DNA of 35,286 bases. It comes from Candidatus Saccharimonadota bacterium. Lineage in GTDB: Bacteria; Patescibacteriota; Saccharimonadia; Saccharimonadales; Saccharimonadaceae. The notes beneath the pieces were generated by a model. That model was not told the DNA's origin and ran no database searches. It saw only the letters and a list, made by a program, of their open reading frames with translations. The stretch spans positions 1 through 35,286 of the forward strand of contig JAFZBS010000011.1 in the NCBI GenBank assembly GCA_017561575.1, in the 5' to 3' direction. Position 1 is the stretch's first letter, and every line of letters begins with the position of its first letter. A program made the translations under genes and the position numbers. Below are positions 3,441-33,278 of the stretch, piece after piece.

Positions 3441-6400
3441 TTAGGAAATCTTTTCGAGTGAGATAGTTATACTGTCGCCGTTGATTTTAGCAATTTCGTC
3501 GTATGTAAAATTGGCAGACTTGCTAAATTCGTCAGTTAGAGTTTCGGACTTTATAAGGTCTTCAAAACCTTTTGGTAAATCAATTGAAAGAGAAAGTTTG
3601 ATGTGATCATCCATATTTAGCTTAGCATTCTTGCGAGCGGACTGGATAGCACGGATGAGGTCGCGGGCAAAGCCTTCAGCAGCAAGCTCTTTCGTGATTG
3701 TCTTATCGAGAGAAAGTTCTTTGCCATGTTTTACTTCCTTGACGTTGACCTCTTCGGAGATGATTTGCTCATAGAAACTTGGGAGCTTAGAGCCGGCATA
3801 TGTAAGTTTTTTAAGTGGTTGACGAACTTTGACTTGGTCTTCGGTGTCGGATTTTCGCATTCTAAGAGCTAGGGCGTCAGTAATTATCTGGCGAGTTTCG
3901 GACATCTTGTCTAAAATCTCTTGATTTATTTCTCCGGCCTCTGGCCATGGTTCGAGATGGACGGATTCATCTTCGCCAGTCATTTTTTGATAGAGCTCTT
4001 CTGACAAAAACGGAGTAAATGGAGCAAGGAGCTTTGACGTATACACCAATACATAATAAAGTGTAGCGTAAGCGCTAAGCTTGTCGTATTTGTCGTCATT
4101 TTTATTAAAACGGCGGCGAGAACGACGAACGAACCAGTTACTGAGATCGTCAATAAATGGCAGGACGCCTTCAAGTGCTTTTGGAATGTTATATTCGTGC
4201 ATGCCTTCGGTGATATCGTTGCGGAGTTCGTGGAGTCGAGAAATGATCCAGGTGTCGAGAGGGTTTGAAGTGTGGTTTCTCAACGTCCTCGGCGCGCAGT
4301 CGTCATTTTTACAACGGGTCAGTCGGTCTCGTCCCGGTATTTCAGTACCGGCTACTCGACCGTGACCGTTGTCAAAATGACTGCTGGCGCCTGCGGATTG
4401 TTTCGAAACCACACATTCAAACCCTTTCAAATCATTACTATCGATTCCGTCGATTTCGGCGTAGGTAGTAAAGAAGTCGTAGACATTCCAGAGCATAGCG
4501 AGTTTGCGGTTGACATCGGAGACATCTTTATCTAGTAAAGCGAAATCTTCACCAGATAGAACCGGACTGGAGAGCAAGAGAAAACGGAGGGCGTCGGCCG
4601 AATAAGTGTCCATTAAAATATTCGGGTCGGTGTAATTGCCGAGGGATTTACTCATTTTGCGGCCATCGTTACCGGCCAGTGTCCCGGTAGTAATGACGTT
4701 TTTGTAGGCATTTTTATGGCCTTTTTTGGCTTTTTCGCCAAAGGCGCCGATTTCAGCAAGAGTAGTATTGACGGTATGAACATAGTAGAACCAAGCGCGA
4801 ACCTGGCCAACATATTCGACAATGAAGTCGGCTGGGTAGTTTCGTTCAAATTTTTCCTTATTTTCAAACGGATAGTGGAGCTGAGCGAATGGCATAGAGC
4901 CAGATTCAAACCAACAGTCGAGGACTTTTTCGATACGAGTAAAGTGCTCGACATGGGCAGTATCTCTGGACGGGTCCTGCCGACTGCTGTCCTCCCCCAC
5001 CTCACAAGTTCGGCGGGGGTCCCCCTCCGCAGTCGTCACCCGTCCATGTTTATCTACATACGCATCGAATTCAATCTTGTCGACCCAAGGGCGATGATAG
5101 TCGTCGAGGCGCTTTCCAGAATACTTTTCGAGCTCTTCATACGAGCCTATGACAAGCACTGTGCCTTCTTTGGATTTCCAGACTGGCATGGCAGTAGCCC
5201 AGAAGCGGTCGCGAGACAAATTCCAATCTGGGGCCTGTTCAATATTGTTAGCAAAACGGCCATGCTTCAAATAATCTGGGAACCAGTTGATGTTTTCGTT
5301 TTCGGCAAGCATGAGGGATTTTTGGCCTTCAACATCAAAGAACCAAGATGGAAAAGCACGATACATGATGCGCTCTTTACTACGTGGATTGAACGGATAT
5401 TCGTGTTGAATGTATTCGATTTTGTAAATAATTCCCTTTTCTTCGAGACATTTGGCAATAAATTTGTTGGCTGCCCAGATTTGGATGCCGTGTTCGTCGG
5501 TATCACGAACGCCAAGGGCGTGGAGTTTGTCGGCGTATTCTTTGATATAATACCCATTCTCGTCGAGACAGTCGACAAAGCCAATGAGCCCGGGTCTCTC
5601 GACGGGTCCTGCCACCGCAGTTTCCCCCACCGTGCTCGCTTCGTTCCGCGCGGCGGGGGTCCCCCCAGCGGCGTCACCCGTCGATTCATTGTGCTTTTTG
5701 TATAATTCGTAGTCATCTTCGCCGTAGGCAGGAGCAATATGAACGATGCCAGTACCTTCTTCGTCGCCAACAAAATCGGCAGTAAAAACTTGGCAAACTG
5801 TGCCGTCCAAAGATTCGTACTTCAAACCTTCGAGGTCCTTGCCTTTCAAAGTTTTTTCGGGTTTTACGATATCACCAAAGAGTTTACCTGCGAGTTTTTT
5901 AGCAACGATGAGTTTGTCGCCGTCTATATTATATATACCGTAGTCGAGATTTTCGGAGACGGCGAGAGCTCTGTTTGCCATCAAGGTCCAGGGCGTGGTC
6001 GTCCAAGCTAAGAAATAAGTACGATTATCCGAAATGCTCCTTCCTCGGGACGGGTCGCTCGCGCCCGTCGTTACGGGGCTCGCGCCCTCATCCTCGGTCG
6101 TAACCTCCGGAAGCCCTCGGATAGGAGCATTTTCGGATTTTTGCGGCCTTATTTTAAACTTGACGTATGCGCTGGGGTCGGTGACGGTTTGGTAGGCGTC
6201 GTTGTCCATGGTAACTTCGGCTTTGGATACTGGGGTGGCGAATTTGGTATCGTACATCAAGACTTTACGACCCTCGTAAATCTTCCCTGCTTCATAGAGC
6301 TGCTTAAAGGCCCACCAAACGGATTCCATGAAATCTTTGTTCATGGTGCGGTAGCAGTTATCAAAATCAACCCAGCGACCGATGCGATCGATAGTGGAAC

Positions 6401-6797
6401 GCCAAGTTTCGGAATTTGCAACCATGGACTCGCGGGCTTTCGTGATATACTCCTCGAGTGACCACTTGGTGCCAATTTCGCGGCGATCGGTGATGCCAAG
6501 CTGTTTTTCAACAAAATTTTCGGCTGGAAGGCCGTGACAGTCCCAACCCCAACGTCTTTCAACATGGTAGCCATTCATGGTCCAAAAACGCGGGACGGCA
6601 TCTTTAACAATACTGGAGAGTAGTGTACCGTGGTGAGGATTGCCCGTAATAAACGGAGGGCCATCATAAAAAACGTAGGATTTATCGACGGGCCTTTCTT
6701 CAACTGACCGTTCAAAGGTTTTGTTCTTTTTCCACCACTCTACGATGGCTTTTTCGTATTCGATGGCCTTGCGGCGTTCTCCAGCTCTATATTTCAT
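3441..6797 (-). CDS. ileS: Isoleucyl-tRNA synthetase with four palindromic insertions
   Basis: Charges tRNA-Ile with isoleucine in the cytoplasm. Class I signatures are clear: HHGT (55-58, the HIGH motif in the context PPFITGNPHHGTLL), GWDCHGLP, the CP1 editing domain with TYFLAWTTTPWTLMANRAL, DCWFESGSMP, and KMSKS at 714-718, followed by the anticodon-binding domain starting near NPLDTWIISR. This is the large type-2 (eukaryote-like) form. At 1118 residues it is longer than usual because four segments are foreign: about residues 221-257, 372-400, 585-610 and 788-846. Each matches a palindromic GC-rich DNA element and keeps the frame open. None hits a recognised catalytic motif, though two lie within or at the edges of the editing domain. 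The start ATG lies 6 bases after a TAAAAT box without ribosome binding site. Confidence 0.97.
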   Translation of the reverse strand: MKYRAGERRKAIEYEKAIVEWWKKNKTFERSVEERPVDKSYVFYDGPPFITGNPHHGTLLSSIVKDAVPRFWTMNGYHVERRWGWDCHGLPAENFVEKQLGITDRREIGTKWSLEEYITKARESMVANSETWRSTIDRIGRWVDFDNCYRTMNKDFMESVWWAFKQLYEAGKIYEGRKVLMYDTKFATPVSKAEVTMDNDAYQTVTDPSAYVKFKIRPQKSENAPIRGLPEVTTEDEGASPVTTGASDPSRGRSISDNRTYFLAWTTTPWTLMANRALAVSENLDYGIYNIDGDKLIVAKKLAGKLFGDIVKPEKTLKGKDLEGLKYESLDGTVCQVFTADFVGDEEGTGIVHIAPAYGEDDYELYKKHNESTGDAAGGTPAARNEASTVGETAVAGPVERPGLIGFVDCLDENGYYIKEYADKLHALGVRDTDEHGIQIWAANKFIAKCLEEKGIIYKIEYIQHEYPFNPRSKERIMYRAFPSWFFDVEGQKSLMLAENENINWFPDYLKHGRFANNIEQAPDWNLSRDRFWATAMPVWKSKEGTVLVIGSYEELEKYSGKRLDDYHRPWVDKIEFDAYVDKHGRVTTAEGDPRRTCEVGEDSSRQDPSRDTAHVEHFTRIEKVLDCWFESGSMPFAQLHYPFENKEKFERNYPADFIVEYVGQVRAWFYYVHTVNTTLAEIGAFGEKAKKGHKNAYKNVITTGTLAGNDGRKMSKSLGNYTDPNILMDTYSADALRFLLLSSPVLSGEDFALLDKDVSDVNRKLAMLWNVYDFFTTYAEIDGIDSNDLKGFECVVSKQSAGASSHFDNGHGRVAGTEIPGRDRLTRCKNDDCAPRTLRNHTSNPLDTWIISRLHELRNDITEGMHEYNIPKALEGVLPFIDDLSNWFVRRSRRRFNKNDDKYDKLSAYATLYYVLVYTSKLLAPFTPFLSEELYQKMTGEDESVHLEPWPEAGEINQEILDKMSETRQIITDALALRMRKSDTEDQVKVRQPLKKLTYAGSKLPSFYEQIISEEVNVKEVKHGKELSLDKTITKELAAEGFARDLIRAIQSARKNAKLNMDDHIKLSLSIDLPKGFEDLIKSETLTDEFSKSANFTYDEIAKINGDSITISLEKIS
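4260..4435. repeat. Family C palindromic element inside ileS
   Basis: A 176-base imperfect palindrome. The outer arms GGGTTTGAAGTGTGGTTTC (from 4261) and the reverse complement of GAAACCACACATTCAAACCC (ending 4434) pair. Further in, GTCATTTTTACAACGGGTCA pairs with TGACCGTTGTCAAAATGAC, and CCGGTATTTCAGTACCGG forms the tip. It adds about 58 residues (VVSKQSAGASSHFDNG... to ...CAPRTLRNHT) just before the NPLDTW segment of IleRS. It is the longest element here and the only copy of its type. Confidence 0.85.
4968..5045 (+). repeat. Family A palindromic element inside ileS
   Basis: 78 bases (26 codons). Outer arms GGACGGGT/ACCCGTCC, conserved CCTGCC, inner arms GACTGC/GCAGTC, then CCTCCCCC ... GGGGGTCCCCCT. 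It codes on the minus strand for residues near GDPRRTCEVGEDSSRQDP. It is read in a different frame from the other ileS family A copy. Confidence 0.85.
5600..5683 (+). repeat. Family A palindromic element inside ileS
   Basis: 84 bases (28 codons). Outer arms CGACGGGT/ACCCGTCG, conserved CCTGCC, inner arms CCGC/GCGG, then TTTCCCCC ... GGGGGTCCCCCC. It adds TGDAAGGTPAARNEASTVGE and following residues to the editing-domain region of IleRS. It is read in the same frame as the lipid-kinase copy (compare GDAARGTP-like GDARRGTP there). Confidence 0.85.
6027..6138 (+). repeat. Family B palindromic element inside ileS
   Basis: 112 bases. Outer arms ATCCGAAATGCTCC and GGAGCATTTTCGGAT pair. The core (GGGTCGCTCGCGCCCGTCG, ACGGGGC, ATCCTCG, CTCCGGAA) matches the cores in polA and argS with some divergence. 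On the minus strand it codes for the segment around APIRGLPEVTTEDEGASPVT of IleRS. Confidence 0.8.
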
Positions 6798-20118: not shown

Positions 20119-22602
20119 CTATAGTTCTCCCCAATTTTGGCCGATGGTTACTTCTGCGGCTAATTTAATGCTGAGTTCGGGGGCTACAGATTCCATTTCG
20201 CGCTTTAAAATCTCGGCAACGGACTCAGCGTCTTCTTTATCGCATTCGATGATTAGTGAATCGTGAACTTGCAATACCATTGCGGCATTTTTTGGCAAGG
20301 CCTTATCAACATTTATCATGGCTCGTTTCATCAAGTCAGCTTCGGTGCCCTGAATTGGCATATTCTGAGCGGCGCGCTCGGCTGCCTGGCGGATGATGAA
20401 ATTAGGGGATTTAACATCTGGGGTTGGGCGACGGCGACCATAGAAAGTTTCAACATAACCATCCTCTCTCGCTTGACGTAGAATGCTATCAAGTTTTTGC
20501 TTAATTGGGGCGCGAAGGGTAAAATAATTATCGATAAACTGCTTTGCTTCAGATATGGACATGTCGGCAGCTTCGGCGAGTCCTTTTACGCTCATACCAT
20601 AGAGAATGCCAAAATTAATAACTTTAGCGGCGCGACGTTGATTCTTGGTAACATTTTCGATTGGCACACCAAAAGCTTCGGATGCGGTTTTGGTATGAAT
20701 ATCTACATCGTTATTAAAATCATTAATAAGTTCTTTGTCGCCACTTAAAATAGCGGCGAGACGAAGTTCGAATTGAGAATAATCTGCTGAGACCAGGACT
20801 TTGCCCTCTGGCGCAATGAAGCCAGCGCGGATGCGTTTGCCCTCTTCGGTGCGAACTGGGATATTTTGTAAATTTGGATTGATACTTGAAAGACGCCCGG
20901 TGGCAGTGACATTTTGAGTAAATGTAGTATGAACCCTGCCATCTTTGTCGGCAAGATTTGGCATAGGAATTACATATGTGGATAATAATTTTGCCGCTTC
21001 ACGGTATTCTATTATTTTGGTGATGATTGGGTGCATGTCTTTCAATTTATCCAGCTCTTTAGCACCAGTAGAATAGCTGCGCGAAGTTTTTTTAATGCCT
21101 TTGGTTGGAAGTTGTAAATCTGTAAAAAGGATTTCCGATAGTTGGATTGGCGAGTTGATGTTAAATTCCTTGCCGGCAAGTTTATAAGCATCTTGTTCAA
21201 GTTTTTTTACTTCTTCGGTGTATTCTTTCTGGAGTTCATCGAAATAATTGCGGTCAATCAGCATGCCATGCTTTTCCATTTTATAGAGAACTGGGATGAG
21301 AGGTAGGTCTAGCTTAGTTAAAACTTGACTAAGTTTCGGAGTTTTTGCTAATTCTTTTATCTGGCGTTCGTATTCTTCTTCGGGGACGACAAGTTGGGGT
21401 TGTTCCCTTTCTAGCGGATTTATCAAAAAGGCGGCCTGAGATAAGTCCCAAAAGGTTTCGCCGCTCAAGATTGCTTCTGCGGTTTTGCCGTCGGAGTGCA
21501 TGAGGGATTTGATGTCCCAAGCAATTATCCTTGGGGACAATTCTTCATTGGCCTTCGGGTCGCGTCGCTCGCGCCCGTCGCCACGGGGCGAGCGCGCTAA
21601 TCCTCGCGCTGCCGCGCTCCGGAATCCCCTCAAGCCAATAGAAGAATTGTCACCCGTCTCGGTGTGAACTTCTGGATGCTCTTCCCTCAAACCAATGGAA
21701 GAATCATCTCCTGAGGACTCTCGAGAAGTGCCGTTTTCGAAATCGCTGGCGCTAATCTTTCGGATGAGAGAGTTAAATTGGAGTTTTTTTAGGCCGGCAA
21801 TGATTTGATCTTTGTTAAAGTGGAAATCTGGAATATCGGCGAGATTGATTGGCGCATCAAACATAATTTTTGCAAGTTTTTTAGATAGATAAGCACTATC
21901 CTTGCCCGCTTCGAGCTTTGTACGGGTGGAGCCGGCGATACTGTCTATATTGTTATAGATATTATCTAAGTCACCATAGTCACTTAAGAGTCTTGCGGCG
22001 GTTTTTTCACCGATGCCAGGGACACCGGGAATATTGTCGGATGAATCACCCTTCAATGCTTTGAGATCAAGGAATTGAGATTTTAATATGCCGTATTTTG
22101 CTTCAACTTCGGGAATATCGATTTTTTCGATATTTGTGAAACCTTTTAAGATACGCCACATGTGAGTATTGTCATCGACAATTTGAAGCATATCAAGATC
22201 AGAAGAGATGATAAAGGTTTCCCAGTCGCCGGTCTCATCGGCCTGCCTTGCAAGAGTGCCGATAATGTCGTCAGCTTCGTAATCGTCTAATTCCACAAAG
22301 CTCCAGCCAAGATCTTTGATTAACGTTTCAAGTAAAGGGATTTGGGCGTAGAAATCATCGCCTGGTTTGATGCGACCGGCTTTATAATCTTGATAGAGTG
22401 CGCGGCGTTTGGAAACTGAAGTACGAGAGTCCCATGCCACAACAACTTTGGTGGGGTTTAACTTTCGGACGATTTCCATAGCGATGGCAGCAAAACCATA
22501 GATACCACCAGTAGGGGTGCCATCTGGTAAACTGAGTGCGCCCATGGCATAATAGCCCCGGTAAAAGACTGATTTGCCATCAATTAGGACTAGGCGTTTC
22601 AA
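20119..22602 (-). CDS. polA: DNA polymerase I
   Basis: 827 residues. Residues 1-290 are the 5'-nuclease (DGKSVFYRGYYAM, DDYEADDIIGTLA, LKGDSSDNIPGVPGIGEKTA). A 3'-5' exonuclease remnant (SPRIIAWDIKSL ... FWDLSQAAFLINPLE) lacks the DxE metal site, so proofreading is probably lost. The polymerase part has motif A VSADYSQFELRLAAILSGD, motif B RRAAKVINFGILYGMS and motif C LQVHDSLIIE. It works in lagging-strand maturation and repair. The linker at about 318-356 contains a family B palindromic element plus a duplicated segment. The start is TTG, overlapping the upstream stop (TTGA), with AAGGGAG as ribosome binding site. Confidence 0.97.
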   Translation of the reverse strand: MKRLVLIDGKSVFYRGYYAMGALSLPDGTPTGGIYGFAAIAMEIVRKLNPTKVVVAWDSRTSVSKRRALYQDYKAGRIKPGDDFYAQIPLLETLIKDLGWSFVELDDYEADDIIGTLARQADETGDWETFIISSDLDMLQIVDDNTHMWRILKGFTNIEKIDIPEVEAKYGILKSQFLDLKALKGDSSDNIPGVPGIGEKTAARLLSDYGDLDNIYNNIDSIAGSTRTKLEAGKDSAYLSKKLAKIMFDAPINLADIPDFHFNKDQIIAGLKKLQFNSLIRKISASDFENGTSRESSGDDSSIGLREEHPEVHTETGDNSSIGLRGFRSAAARGLARSPRGDGRERRDPKANEELSPRIIAWDIKSLMHSDGKTAEAILSGETFWDLSQAAFLINPLEREQPQLVVPEEEYERQIKELAKTPKLSQVLTKLDLPLIPVLYKMEKHGMLIDRNYFDELQKEYTEEVKKLEQDAYKLAGKEFNINSPIQLSEILFTDLQLPTKGIKKTSRSYSTGAKELDKLKDMHPIITKIIEYREAAKLLSTYVIPMPNLADKDGRVHTTFTQNVTATGRLSSINPNLQNIPVRTEEGKRIRAGFIAPEGKVLVSADYSQFELRLAAILSGDKELINDFNNDVDIHTKTASEAFGVPIENVTKNQRRAAKVINFGILYGMSVKGLAEAADMSISEAKQFIDNYFTLRAPIKQKLDSILRQAREDGYVETFYGRRRPTPDVKSPNFIIRQAAERAAQNMPIQGTEADLMKRAMINVDKALPKNAAMVLQVHDSLIIECDKEDAESVAEILKREMESVAPELSIKLAAEVTIGQNWGEL
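21536..21651 (+). repeat. Family B palindromic element inside polA
   Basis: 116 bases. Outer arms GACAATTCTTCATTGG and CCAATAGAAGAATTGTC pair. The core shares nearly all positions with argS (GGGTCGCGTCGCTCGCGCCC, TCGCCA, GGGGC, GCGCGCTAATCCTCGCGCTG, CGCGCTCCGGAATCCCC). On the minus strand it encodes GLARSPRGDGRERRDP, nearly identical to the argS insert. Confidence 0.9.
21626..21707 (-). repeat. Imperfect direct repeat next to the polA element
   Basis: CCCCTCAAGCCAATAGAAGA (ending ATTGTC) is repeated about 55 bases further on as TCCCTCAAACCAATGGAAGA (ending ATCATC). In the protein this is DDSSIGLR followed later by DNSSIGLR. One arm of the palindrome is thus a copy of adjacent polA linker sequence. 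Confidence 0.75.
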
Positions 22603-31553: not shown

Positions 31554-33278
31554 CTACATTTCCTCTGGAATGTTAATGCCGAGTAAGTTTAGACCATGAG
31601 TCATGACGTTTAGATAAACTTGGACTAATTTGACACGTTCTACTTCTTCGTTGCTACCGGTGACTTGGCAGTTTTCATAGAAGCGCGAAAAGTCTTGGGC
31701 GAGTTCGTATAGATAATTTGCAAGTTTGTGCGGAGCCAGTTCGTTTACTGCTTCACATAGGAGCGATTTATATTCGAGCATCTTTTTGACAAGATTTTTT
31801 TCATACGAAGTCCAGTCGCTCACGCCGGGGTCGCGTCGCTCGCGCCCATCGCCATGGGGCTCGCGCGCTAATCCTCGCGCTGGCGCGCTCCGGAATCCCC
31901 CTTGCGTGAGCGATTGGACTTCAGTTGACGCTAAAATTTTCTTGGCGCGAACGCAGCTATAAAGCAGATACGGCCCGGAGTTACCGGTCATTTTGACGGA
32001 CTCTTTGGGGTCAAAAATGATGTCACCGCCCATTTTGTATTTCAAAAAGGCGTATTTAGTGGCAGCGAGGGAGACTACTTGGTCCGTAGAATCGTAGGCT
32101 TCCTTTAGTTCTTCGTTTACCATATCAAGAACATCAATAGCTTTAAGAAAATTTCCTTTTCTAGACGACATTTTGACATTGCCAGGGAGTTTGACGAGAC
32201 CATGCGTCAAATGTGTGGTTTTTGCAACTAGCTCGGGAGCATACTGCTCAACGGATTTTAAAACAACTTTCATATATTCGAGCTGCTCGCCGCCAGTAAT
32301 AACAACGGATTTGTCAAAATGATAGTCGGCGTCTTTTTGGAAAATGAGTCCGACGTCTTTGGCTTCGTAAGTCGGGACGCCTTCCTTGTTAATGAAGACG
32401 CGGGTGTGAAGACCAAATTTGTCGCCGTTAAAGATTACGGCGCCTTCGCTCATCTCATAAACGCCTTTTTCTAATTCTTCCTTGACCTTTTTAAGGCCTA
32501 GATTTGCAACGGTGGATTCCGGATAGTACTTGTCAAACTTGACGCCAATTTTGGCATAAAAGTTATTGAAGTAGTCGTAGGATAATTCCCTGCCGCGCCA
32601 GTAGGTTTCGGCTAACTTAGTGTCGTGAAGATTCTCTGCGTTAATTTTGTAAATATCTTTGTTGAGTTTAGTTATCTCTGCGTGCGCTTTTTCGTCCTCG
32701 TCGTAGAGCGCAGTACCTTCGACATAACATTTTGCTATATCTTCTATTTGGAGATCCTTAATATCCTTTTGCATCAAAACATACATAGTTTTGGCAACAT
32801 GGAGGCCAACATCGCCGCCAAAATTGGCGCGGATGACTTTGGCACCGGCATATTCATATAATCTTGATATTGAATCGCCGACAATGCTGGTATAAAGATG
32901 ACCGACGTGGAGGACTTTGAAAGGATTTGGATCGCTAAATTCGCAAATTATCATCTTGCCATCATATTCGTGCGAGGCAATTTCCTTGTCAAAATCTTGA
33001 GAAAGGTGGTCGATTTTTTCTGATAAATAAGCATTTGACAAAGTAAAATTCAGAAAACCCGGTGCGGAGAAGGCTAAAGTTGCTACGGGGTCGAGTTTTT
33101 CTGCTAGCTCTTCGGCAATTTGCATGGGGGATTTATGGAGGTCTTTTGCAAGCTTTAATGGGGTGTTCGAGGAATAATCTGCATCAATATTTTCGGGAGA
33201 GGGGGTGATTTCGGGGTCAAAATCTAGACCATAAAGGTCTTTTATTGTCTGAGTGAGCTTTTCCCTGATTTCTTCCAT
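31554..33278 (-). CDS. argS: Arginyl-tRNA synthetase with a palindromic insertion
   Basis: 574 residues. Charges tRNA-Arg. N-terminal Add-1 domain, then the class I HIGH motif as HVGH (124-127, in DPNPFKVLHVGHLYTSIVGD), the family's TYEAKDVGL and a KMSKS-like VKMSSRKGNF near 370. The anticodon-binding helical domain (GPYLLYSCVRAKKIL ... LYELAQDFSRFYENCQVTGS) is interrupted at about residues 453-490 by a family B element coding GLAREPHGDGRERRDP. The insertion sits between helices before SDWTSYEKNLVKKML. The start ATG is 6 bases after a TATAAT box in a palindromic shared promoter. Confidence 0.97.
   Translation of the reverse strand: MEEIREKLTQTIKDLYGLDFDPEITPSPENIDADYSSNTPLKLAKDLHKSPMQIAEELAEKLDPVATLAFSAPGFLNFTLSNAYLSEKIDHLSQDFDKEIASHEYDGKMIICEFSDPNPFKVLHVGHLYTSIVGDSISRLYEYAGAKVIRANFGGDVGLHVAKTMYVLMQKDIKDLQIEDIAKCYVEGTALYDEDEKAHAEITKLNKDIYKINAENLHDTKLAETYWRGRELSYDYFNNFYAKIGVKFDKYYPESTVANLGLKKVKEELEKGVYEMSEGAVIFNGDKFGLHTRVFINKEGVPTYEAKDVGLIFQKDADYHFDKSVVITGGEQLEYMKVVLKSVEQYAPELVAKTTHLTHGLVKLPGNVKMSSRKGNFLKAIDVLDMVNEELKEAYDSTDQVVSLAATKYAFLKYKMGGDIIFDPKESVKMTGNSGPYLLYSCVRAKKILASTEVQSLTQGGFRSAPARGLAREPHGDGRERRDPGVSDWTSYEKNLVKKMLEYKSLLCEAVNELAPHKLANYLYELAQDFSRFYENCQVTGSNEEVERVKLVQVYLNVMTHGLNLLGINIPEEM
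31807..31922 (+). repeat. Family B palindromic element inside argS
   Basis: 116 bases, the same length as in polA. Outer arms GAAGTCCAGTCGCTCACGC and GCGTGAGCGATTGGACTTC pair with one mismatch; they share nothing with the polA arms. The 70-base core is nearly identical to polA. Confidence 0.92.

Follow-up and report, generated by a model that had tools for sequence, protein, structure and literature searches.

A repeat in the polA linker of a Saccharibacterium is one copy of a small dispersed mobile DNA hairpin with site-specific inverted arms

The repeat in the polA linker is one copy of a small dispersed mobile DNA hairpin present in one genus of gut Saccharibacteria. The explanation that we favor, at a probability of about 0.6, is that a core inserts by fold-back template switching with no transposase of its own, so that the native flank X is followed by the core and then by X', a copy of X in inverted orientation, before the gene resumes, and that polA was hit twice on the same arm. 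As part of this explanation, the element probably inserts into genes and survives where the reading frame stays intact.

The window, which is the whole stretch of 35,286 nucleotides that was analyzed, is one (C8) of the 11 contigs of a host genome of 622,696 bp, designated G000. Relatives by PolA came from Candidatus Saccharibacteria of gut and rumen, including Ca. Nanosyncoccus alces (NZ_PRLM01000005.1). The gene and the parts of its linker are the following.

Positions 20119 to 22602, minus strand: polA open reading frame of 827 aa with an in-frame TTG start, encoding a 5'-nuclease, a variable linker, an exonuclease remnant and the polymerase.
Positions 21533 to 21555, no strand assigned: X', the outer arm (left on the plus strand), inverted relative to X2 and X1 in the arm alignment.
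Positions 21556 to 21631, plus strand: element core with a closing GGG/CCC stem, hairpin A, hairpin B and a three-way junction, defined by genome search, folding and covariance.
Positions 21631 to 21654, no strand assigned: X2, the right arm, whose coding strand reads SSIGL; two mismatches and one extra nucleotide relative to X'.
Positions 21655 to 21687, no strand assigned: spacer of 33 nt, whose best match is the right end of the putatively older element subfamily of the IleRS copy, a match not significant alone (53 of 300 shuffles as good).
Positions 21688 to 21711, no strand assigned: X1, the putatively older arm copy with the second SSIGL, preceded by CCCT as is X2; five mismatches and one extra nucleotide relative to X'.

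The double occurrence of SSIGLR in the PolA linker, noticed in an earlier sequence-only reading of this DNA, was confirmed in the translated frame (GDDSSIGLREEHPEVHTETGDNSSIGLRGF). The inverted arms at 21533-21555 and 21632-21654 are separated by 76 nt and are 78% complementary without gaps; they scored above the mismatched-flank control, and the hairpin folded much better than shuffled sequence (z of -8.1, coding strand). The direct repeat was weaker than the inverted arms, its score being 10.5 where the 99.5th percentile of the control was 9.5. That reading had also described the linker as joining the 5'-nuclease to an exonuclease domain without its metal site, which stands in the looser form that the domain is not recognizable by Pfam and that the intervening region is short. 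The Pfam search of PolA found 5_3_exonuc_N, 5_3_exonuc and DNA_pol_A and no 3'-5' exonuclease domain, and the alignment with the Taq polymerase (PDB) covered only residues 3-283 and 426-824, leaving a region between residues 283 and 426 that cannot hold a complete exonuclease domain. The short exonuclease region was a genus-wide feature in the alignment of relatives, and nothing connected it with the insertion of the element.

In the polA genes of relatives, SSIGL(R/K) was found at none of 109 loci (one match lay in another frame), and the case of both repeats in a relative lacking the element was not encountered. The linker was hypervariable in the alignment of relatives, so that no clean empty site was found at polA itself. 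Among the polA linkers of loci L230-L309, the element was present in at least 14 loci, and arrays of truncated elements occurred, for example in L249.

The core between the polA arms (21556-21631) was repeated at 18 further places in the own genome, 19 including itself (E ≤ 1), and profile searches recovered 22 to 25 copies there, varying with model and threshold. The core measures about 75 to 80 bp, and its fold consists of a pair of hairpins at a three-way junction that a GGG/CCC stem closes. Standard pairs filled 93.3% of the pair cells and both sides had changed in 13 of 24 pairs, a result that 0 of 500 shuffles equaled. A covariance model built from 21 cores matched 57 of the 60 genomes of the genus, with a maximum of 27 copies per genome. 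Across the order, 19 of 197 genomes had matches; 14 of these were again from this genus, whereas the other 5 came from two further genera of the family and gave few or weak matches. The Rfam search of the window at 21400-21850 gave 0 matches at E ≤ 1. Two further copies in the window carry arms of their own.

Positions 31807 to 31922, plus strand: in-frame copy (core 31826-31902) within the ArgRS gene argS (31554-33278, minus strand), flanked by arms of its own (GAAGTCCAGTCGCTCACGC ...).
Positions 6020 to 6143, plus strand, ends approximate: in-frame copy of the GTAACC subfamily (core about 6045-6119) within the IleRS gene ileS (3441-6797, minus strand), flanked by arms of its own.

Most own-genome copies (22 of 25) lay in a long open frame with an ortholog in genome G001; three had no such frame. 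The pairwise alignments showed an in-frame insert, mostly of about 30 residues, in conserved protein genes whose G001 orthologs lack the element, as is the case for Rickettsia-type palindromic elements (RPE); the exception was TrmD, whose G001 ortholog bears its own element at the same place. In a wider and gene-biased set, 71 of 75 copies were in frame. The identities of PolA, ArgRS and IleRS were confirmed with Pfam, and the other host genes of the own genome, by family resemblance, are presumably those of AlaRS, MnmA (twice), TatD, LepA, TrmD, an IscS-like protein, DnaX, QueA, Dus, LeuRS (twice), a BipA-like protein and others. The element was found in both orientations relative to the host gene, and action as one particular mRNA strand is therefore unlikely.

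The arms were analyzed by reverse-complementing each right flank and aligning it with the left flank of the same copy, with mismatched flanks as the control. They measured about 21 bp and exceeded the 99th percentile of the control in 47 of 48 copies, in 55 of 64 copies of a widened set scored with another gap cost, and in 88 of 99 nonredundant copies drawn from 3.74 Mb. The polA and TatD copies have identical cores and unrelated arms, and some cores were 100% identical between copies although their arms were copy specific. Only the short closing stem was common to the copies and the 21-bp arms were specific to the site, so that the shared inverted ends of RPE-like elements were not found. A de novo scan for ungapped inverted repeats was too strict, returning 12 matches, mostly other structures, against 0 in one simulated genome, and a genome-wide scan for direct repeats was dominated by tandem repeats and masked N. 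Tandem-repeat DNA of a coding type, rich in Ser-Gly or Pro, was observed in the window at 56-268 and in G000 at C10 1-135 (both contig ends) and internally at C6 87244-87413; an exact direct repeat with a 66-bp period and TTGGTGAGCCGGGTGGGACTCGA units occupies C6 72769-72923.

The origin of the arms was best seen in trmD. Empty sites in relatives read AREFARDAHYIILC (L154) and ARTFAQSEHYIILC (L148), with further examples in L151 and L152, and lacked the second arm. At the filled site L135, AREFAFHSG...NQNANSHYIILC, the upstream arm consists of native codons and the downstream arm is its inverse, followed by native HYIILC; across filled sites, the native upstream arm reads AR(E/K)FA. In L124 and L139, within a gene that we take to be Obg, the native arm seems by eye to be the downstream one. 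The native arm was clear only at TrmD and Obg, and assignment by ungapped protein alignment was ambiguous, with 28 left and 35 right of 63. A trmD tree built without the loop, from 27 of 30 loci (the motif was not found in 3), mixed filled and empty sites and required at least three changes for one orientation and at least two for the other, with low support (7 of 24 branches starred), so the loop was either entered repeatedly or left cleanly.

A single TrmD insertion followed by inversion of the core was also considered and is not favored, the tree with its low support needing those three and two changes or more. The trmD loop before HYIILCPHYEG (L130-L143 and L156) is a hot spot in its own right, where many species have elements of several kinds, in both orientations, only a few codons apart; L134, L142, L143 and L156 contain inserts of other types.

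Insertion sizes gave the same picture as TrmD. Over 42 copies outside polA, the insertion exceeded the core by 0.79 of one arm length (95% CI, 0.66 to 0.91), which excludes both insertion between two old arms (0) and an element bringing both (2); the missing 4 to 5 nt may be microhomology or a small loss. Values for single copies spread from -1.24 to 2.23 because loop length varies between orthologs, and the test failed for the 10 polA copies (median, -0.58) because their hypervariable linker has no stable length. An earlier version with lenient arms gave a ratio of 0.63 (interquartile range, 0.16 to 0.91) in 57 copies including polA; the final one used stricter arms, dropped duplicates and kept polA apart, which left the 42 and 10 copies. 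One arm was thus found to be an inverted copy of the native flank, as in template-switch hairpins, and the empty TrmD sites together with the insertion sizes point to an inverted target duplication made at insertion. The proposal of the first reading that an arm was copied from the insertion target, and that its duplication accompanies the element, holds where relatives allow testing, namely at TrmD and in the sizes.

Two readings in which the arms are not made at insertion are affected by these results. In an ordinary RPE, the whole hairpin would move with its arms, which would diverge later; the in-frame position in conserved genes, the palindromic form and the lack of a detected transposase all fit such an element, but unrelated arms on identical cores, arms that match the host gene at TrmD, and insertions about one arm too short make it very improbable. 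Entry into preexisting inverted repeats or hairpins, with both arms old, accords with the inverted-repeat arms at nearly every site and with the often ambiguous native side. It is nonetheless highly unlikely given the empty TrmD sites without a second arm and a size-ratio interval of 0.66 to 0.91 that excludes 0.

The arms were rarely perfect. Among the 88 pairs, a set from which copies with subthreshold arms are excluded, only 4 were perfect, so that the perfect arms at birth expected of template-switch hairpins were not seen. An extra base was confined to the element's right arm in 49 pairs and to its left arm in 7, and was present in both arms in 12 and in neither in 20 (P = 7e-9, a value somewhat too small because related sites were counted separately). 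With gaps closer than 13 nt to the model core discarded, the right-arm excess was still 42 to 8, and a laxer count gave 41 to 4; the quartiles of the distance of the bulge from the model core were 14 and 19 nt. The side of the bulge followed the element and not the gene, with 17 and 11 right-side and 3 and 2 left-side bulges for the two gene orientations.

Arm mismatch was about 4 to 8% in all classes of core divergence (rho = 0.09, P = 0.57; 40 copies from three genomes, all with arms above the threshold). Nine copies with an identical sister core had 13 mismatches in 217 arm positions and 1.1 gaps each, and in 18 young copies pooled, the arms differed at 24 of 421 positions compared to 24 of 1,134 in the nearest cores (P = 0.0007), a difference to which gene conversion among cores could contribute. 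The arms thus seem to have been imperfect from birth and then kept. An alternative is that a bare core came first and that the arms grew afterward, with quasi-palindrome template switching or selection for pairing maintaining them. Hairpins can be created and maintained by template switching (PMC8794818), and the absence of a rise of arm mismatch with core age agrees with this alternative. We consider it unlikely, as full-length arms (24 pairs each) were already present in copies with identical sister cores, and such repair should erase bulges, yet most pairs have one.

The target sequence was biased as well. Of the 88 copies, 65 could be anchored, and on the left side of the core these were A rich at -13 to -11 and pyrimidine rich at -6 to -1, a bias conditioned by selection because most sites lie in genes.

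Replication template switching with fold-back copying is, we infer, the best mechanism. During replication, the growing strand would halt at a pyrimidine-rich stretch, switch to a copy of the core elsewhere and copy it. The strand would then fold back on the self-complementary core ends, copy its own flank X, about 20 bp of native gene, into the inverted X', and rejoin the original template through microhomology of a few bases. The element would need no transposase of its own. Such a route explains the inverted copy, the size of one arm, both orientations, the pyrimidine bias and the absence of an obvious enzyme. Two observations count against it: fold-back copying should give perfect arms, which only 4 of 88 pairs were, and simple template switching does not predict the extra base in the right arm (49 versus 7). 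As a guess, a nonproofreading polymerase could be the source of the copying errors, the own PolA having no recognizable 3'-5' exonuclease domain.

A dedicated enzyme acting in trans (a transposase, HUH protein or reverse transcriptase) that recognizes the bulged hairpin and a target motif and makes the inverted copy is a serious rival to the fold-back route, if a rather unlikely one. It would account for the target motif and for the fixed side and zone of the bulge, and a reverse transcriptase domain was detected in 40 of 60 genomes of the genus (in G000 at C3 20292-20837), many of the frames in the genus being about 390 aa long. The Y1 transposase domain (PF01797) was found in 2 of the 60 genomes and not in the own genome, with 5 of 14 control genomes positive. 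Copy number, judged by eye across the genus, did not follow the presence of the reverse transcriptase. Against such an enzyme stand several high-copy genomes, 96 to 100% complete, that lack both tested domains (PF01797 and PF00078); G004, G025, G069, G078 and G035 carry 11 to 21 copies each with neither. An enzyme of another family may still act in trans.

The direct repeat in polA had been read as a target sequence copied once as a direct repeat and once inverted in a single event. This was not borne out: a direct repeat of the arm near the core was found in just 5 of the 88 copies with good arms, namely polA here, the polA loci L249, L255 and L262, and dnaX, the remaining copies showing only the inverted arm. 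The search covered arm-length repeats as MITE-type direct target duplications, repeats of 2 to 10 bp being outside its scope. Both dnaX spacers matched the right end of the IleRS-type subfamily (0 of 300 and 9 of 300 shuffled spacers as good), and the polA spacer aligned to the same part at the level of 53 in 300 shuffles; in L262 and L255, the element's own start comes after the first arm.

For the polA direct repeat, the better reading is a pair of successive insertions into a single arm, of which the older is now truncated. The older element would have left X1 as its right arm, and the newer one would have entered beside X', made X2 and deleted half or most of the older core, so that X1 and X2 would now resemble a direct repeat. 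The five mismatches of X1 and two of X2, each against X' with one extra base, are as expected if X1 is older. Counting against two insertions, the direct copies in dnaX agree better with each other than with the opposite arm, which carries three extra bases, and they were possibly made from an existing arm. For polA only, a single event that copied the arm both directly and inverted, or a later tandem duplication of the right arm, would fit a direct repeat that is real and the lack of SSIGL(R/K) in polA of the 109 relative loci. Such an origin is doubtful in view of the small number of copies with a direct repeat (5 of 88), the apparently truncated element that forms the first dnaX spacer and the greater distance of X1 than of X2 from X'.

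Another core family (GACTTGTT...TATTTTTACAAC...ACAAATCTGGTCTAAATCTCATTA), unrelated to the first and containing an inner terminator-like hairpin, was also observed; its inverted arms are locus specific, 20 to 27 nt long and perfect or nearly so. Its copies are located as follows.

G000, C4 10079-10262 and C3 91881-92043: second-family copies in the own genome.
G001, C2 about 49595-49712: second-family copy.
G071, L208 about 4857-4994: second-family copy.

Other long inverted repeats with arms of 26 to 27 nt and structured loops were seen in G000 at C3 5232-5337, C6 48326-48498 and C5 47559-47706, where no Rfam family reached the gathering level. Two or more unrelated core families with locus-specific inverted arms in the same genomes suggest that the route is perhaps a general one of the lineage and not a trait of one element. 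The existence of a class of transposase-free mobile hairpins that enter genes by fold-back replication, with an inverted rather than a direct target duplication, is put forward tentatively, at somewhat less than even odds. If it does exist, the fixed bulge would be a trace left by the copying machinery.

Mobile DNA normally leaves direct target-site duplications, and an inverted one of about 20 bp in most copies points to another way of joining DNA. Essential proteins of a streamlined bacterial lineage have been repeatedly lengthened by about 30 residues, some of which come from reading their own gene in antisense. The many filled and empty sites among near relatives make it possible to test how RPE-like palindromes move when no enzyme is known for them.

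REP and REPIN sequences are dispersed structured palindromes like the present element, are extragenic and are associated with a RAYT transposase. In contrast to their extragenic position (see also PMC3733652), the elements described here lie in frame in genes, and the Y1_Tnp domain is lacking in 58 of 60 genomes, including the own one. The palindromic elements of Rickettsia and Wolbachia, as described in PMC2229807 and PMC3767692, are palindromes of about 100 to 150 bp that lie in frame in conserved protein genes and have no known mobility enzyme, all of which they have in common with the present element. By the same descriptions, their hairpin and inverted ends belong to the element, whereas here the long stem is host sequence specific to the site.

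Mitochondrial repetitive hairpin elements and GC clusters likewise have no known enzyme, and those of Allomyces insert without flanking duplication; the portion of PMC2800124 consulted places them usually between genes and makes no mention of locus-specific inverted arms, whereas the present copies are mostly genic. In mitochondria of Nematomorpha, inverted repeats lie in coding genes and template switching has been proposed; their arms are perfect and a repeated core is not mentioned in the part of PMC6649704 consulted, in contrast to the imperfect arms and repeated core found here. Template-switch mutations, as outlined in PMC8794818, place an inverted copy of adjacent sequence during replication and so generate hairpins. 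The inverted copy of the flank is held in common, but each event here also imports a conserved foreign core. A literature search that covered few subscription journals returned no description of the present element or of an inverted target duplication by a mobile element, and the mode of insertion as such stands a fair chance of being new.
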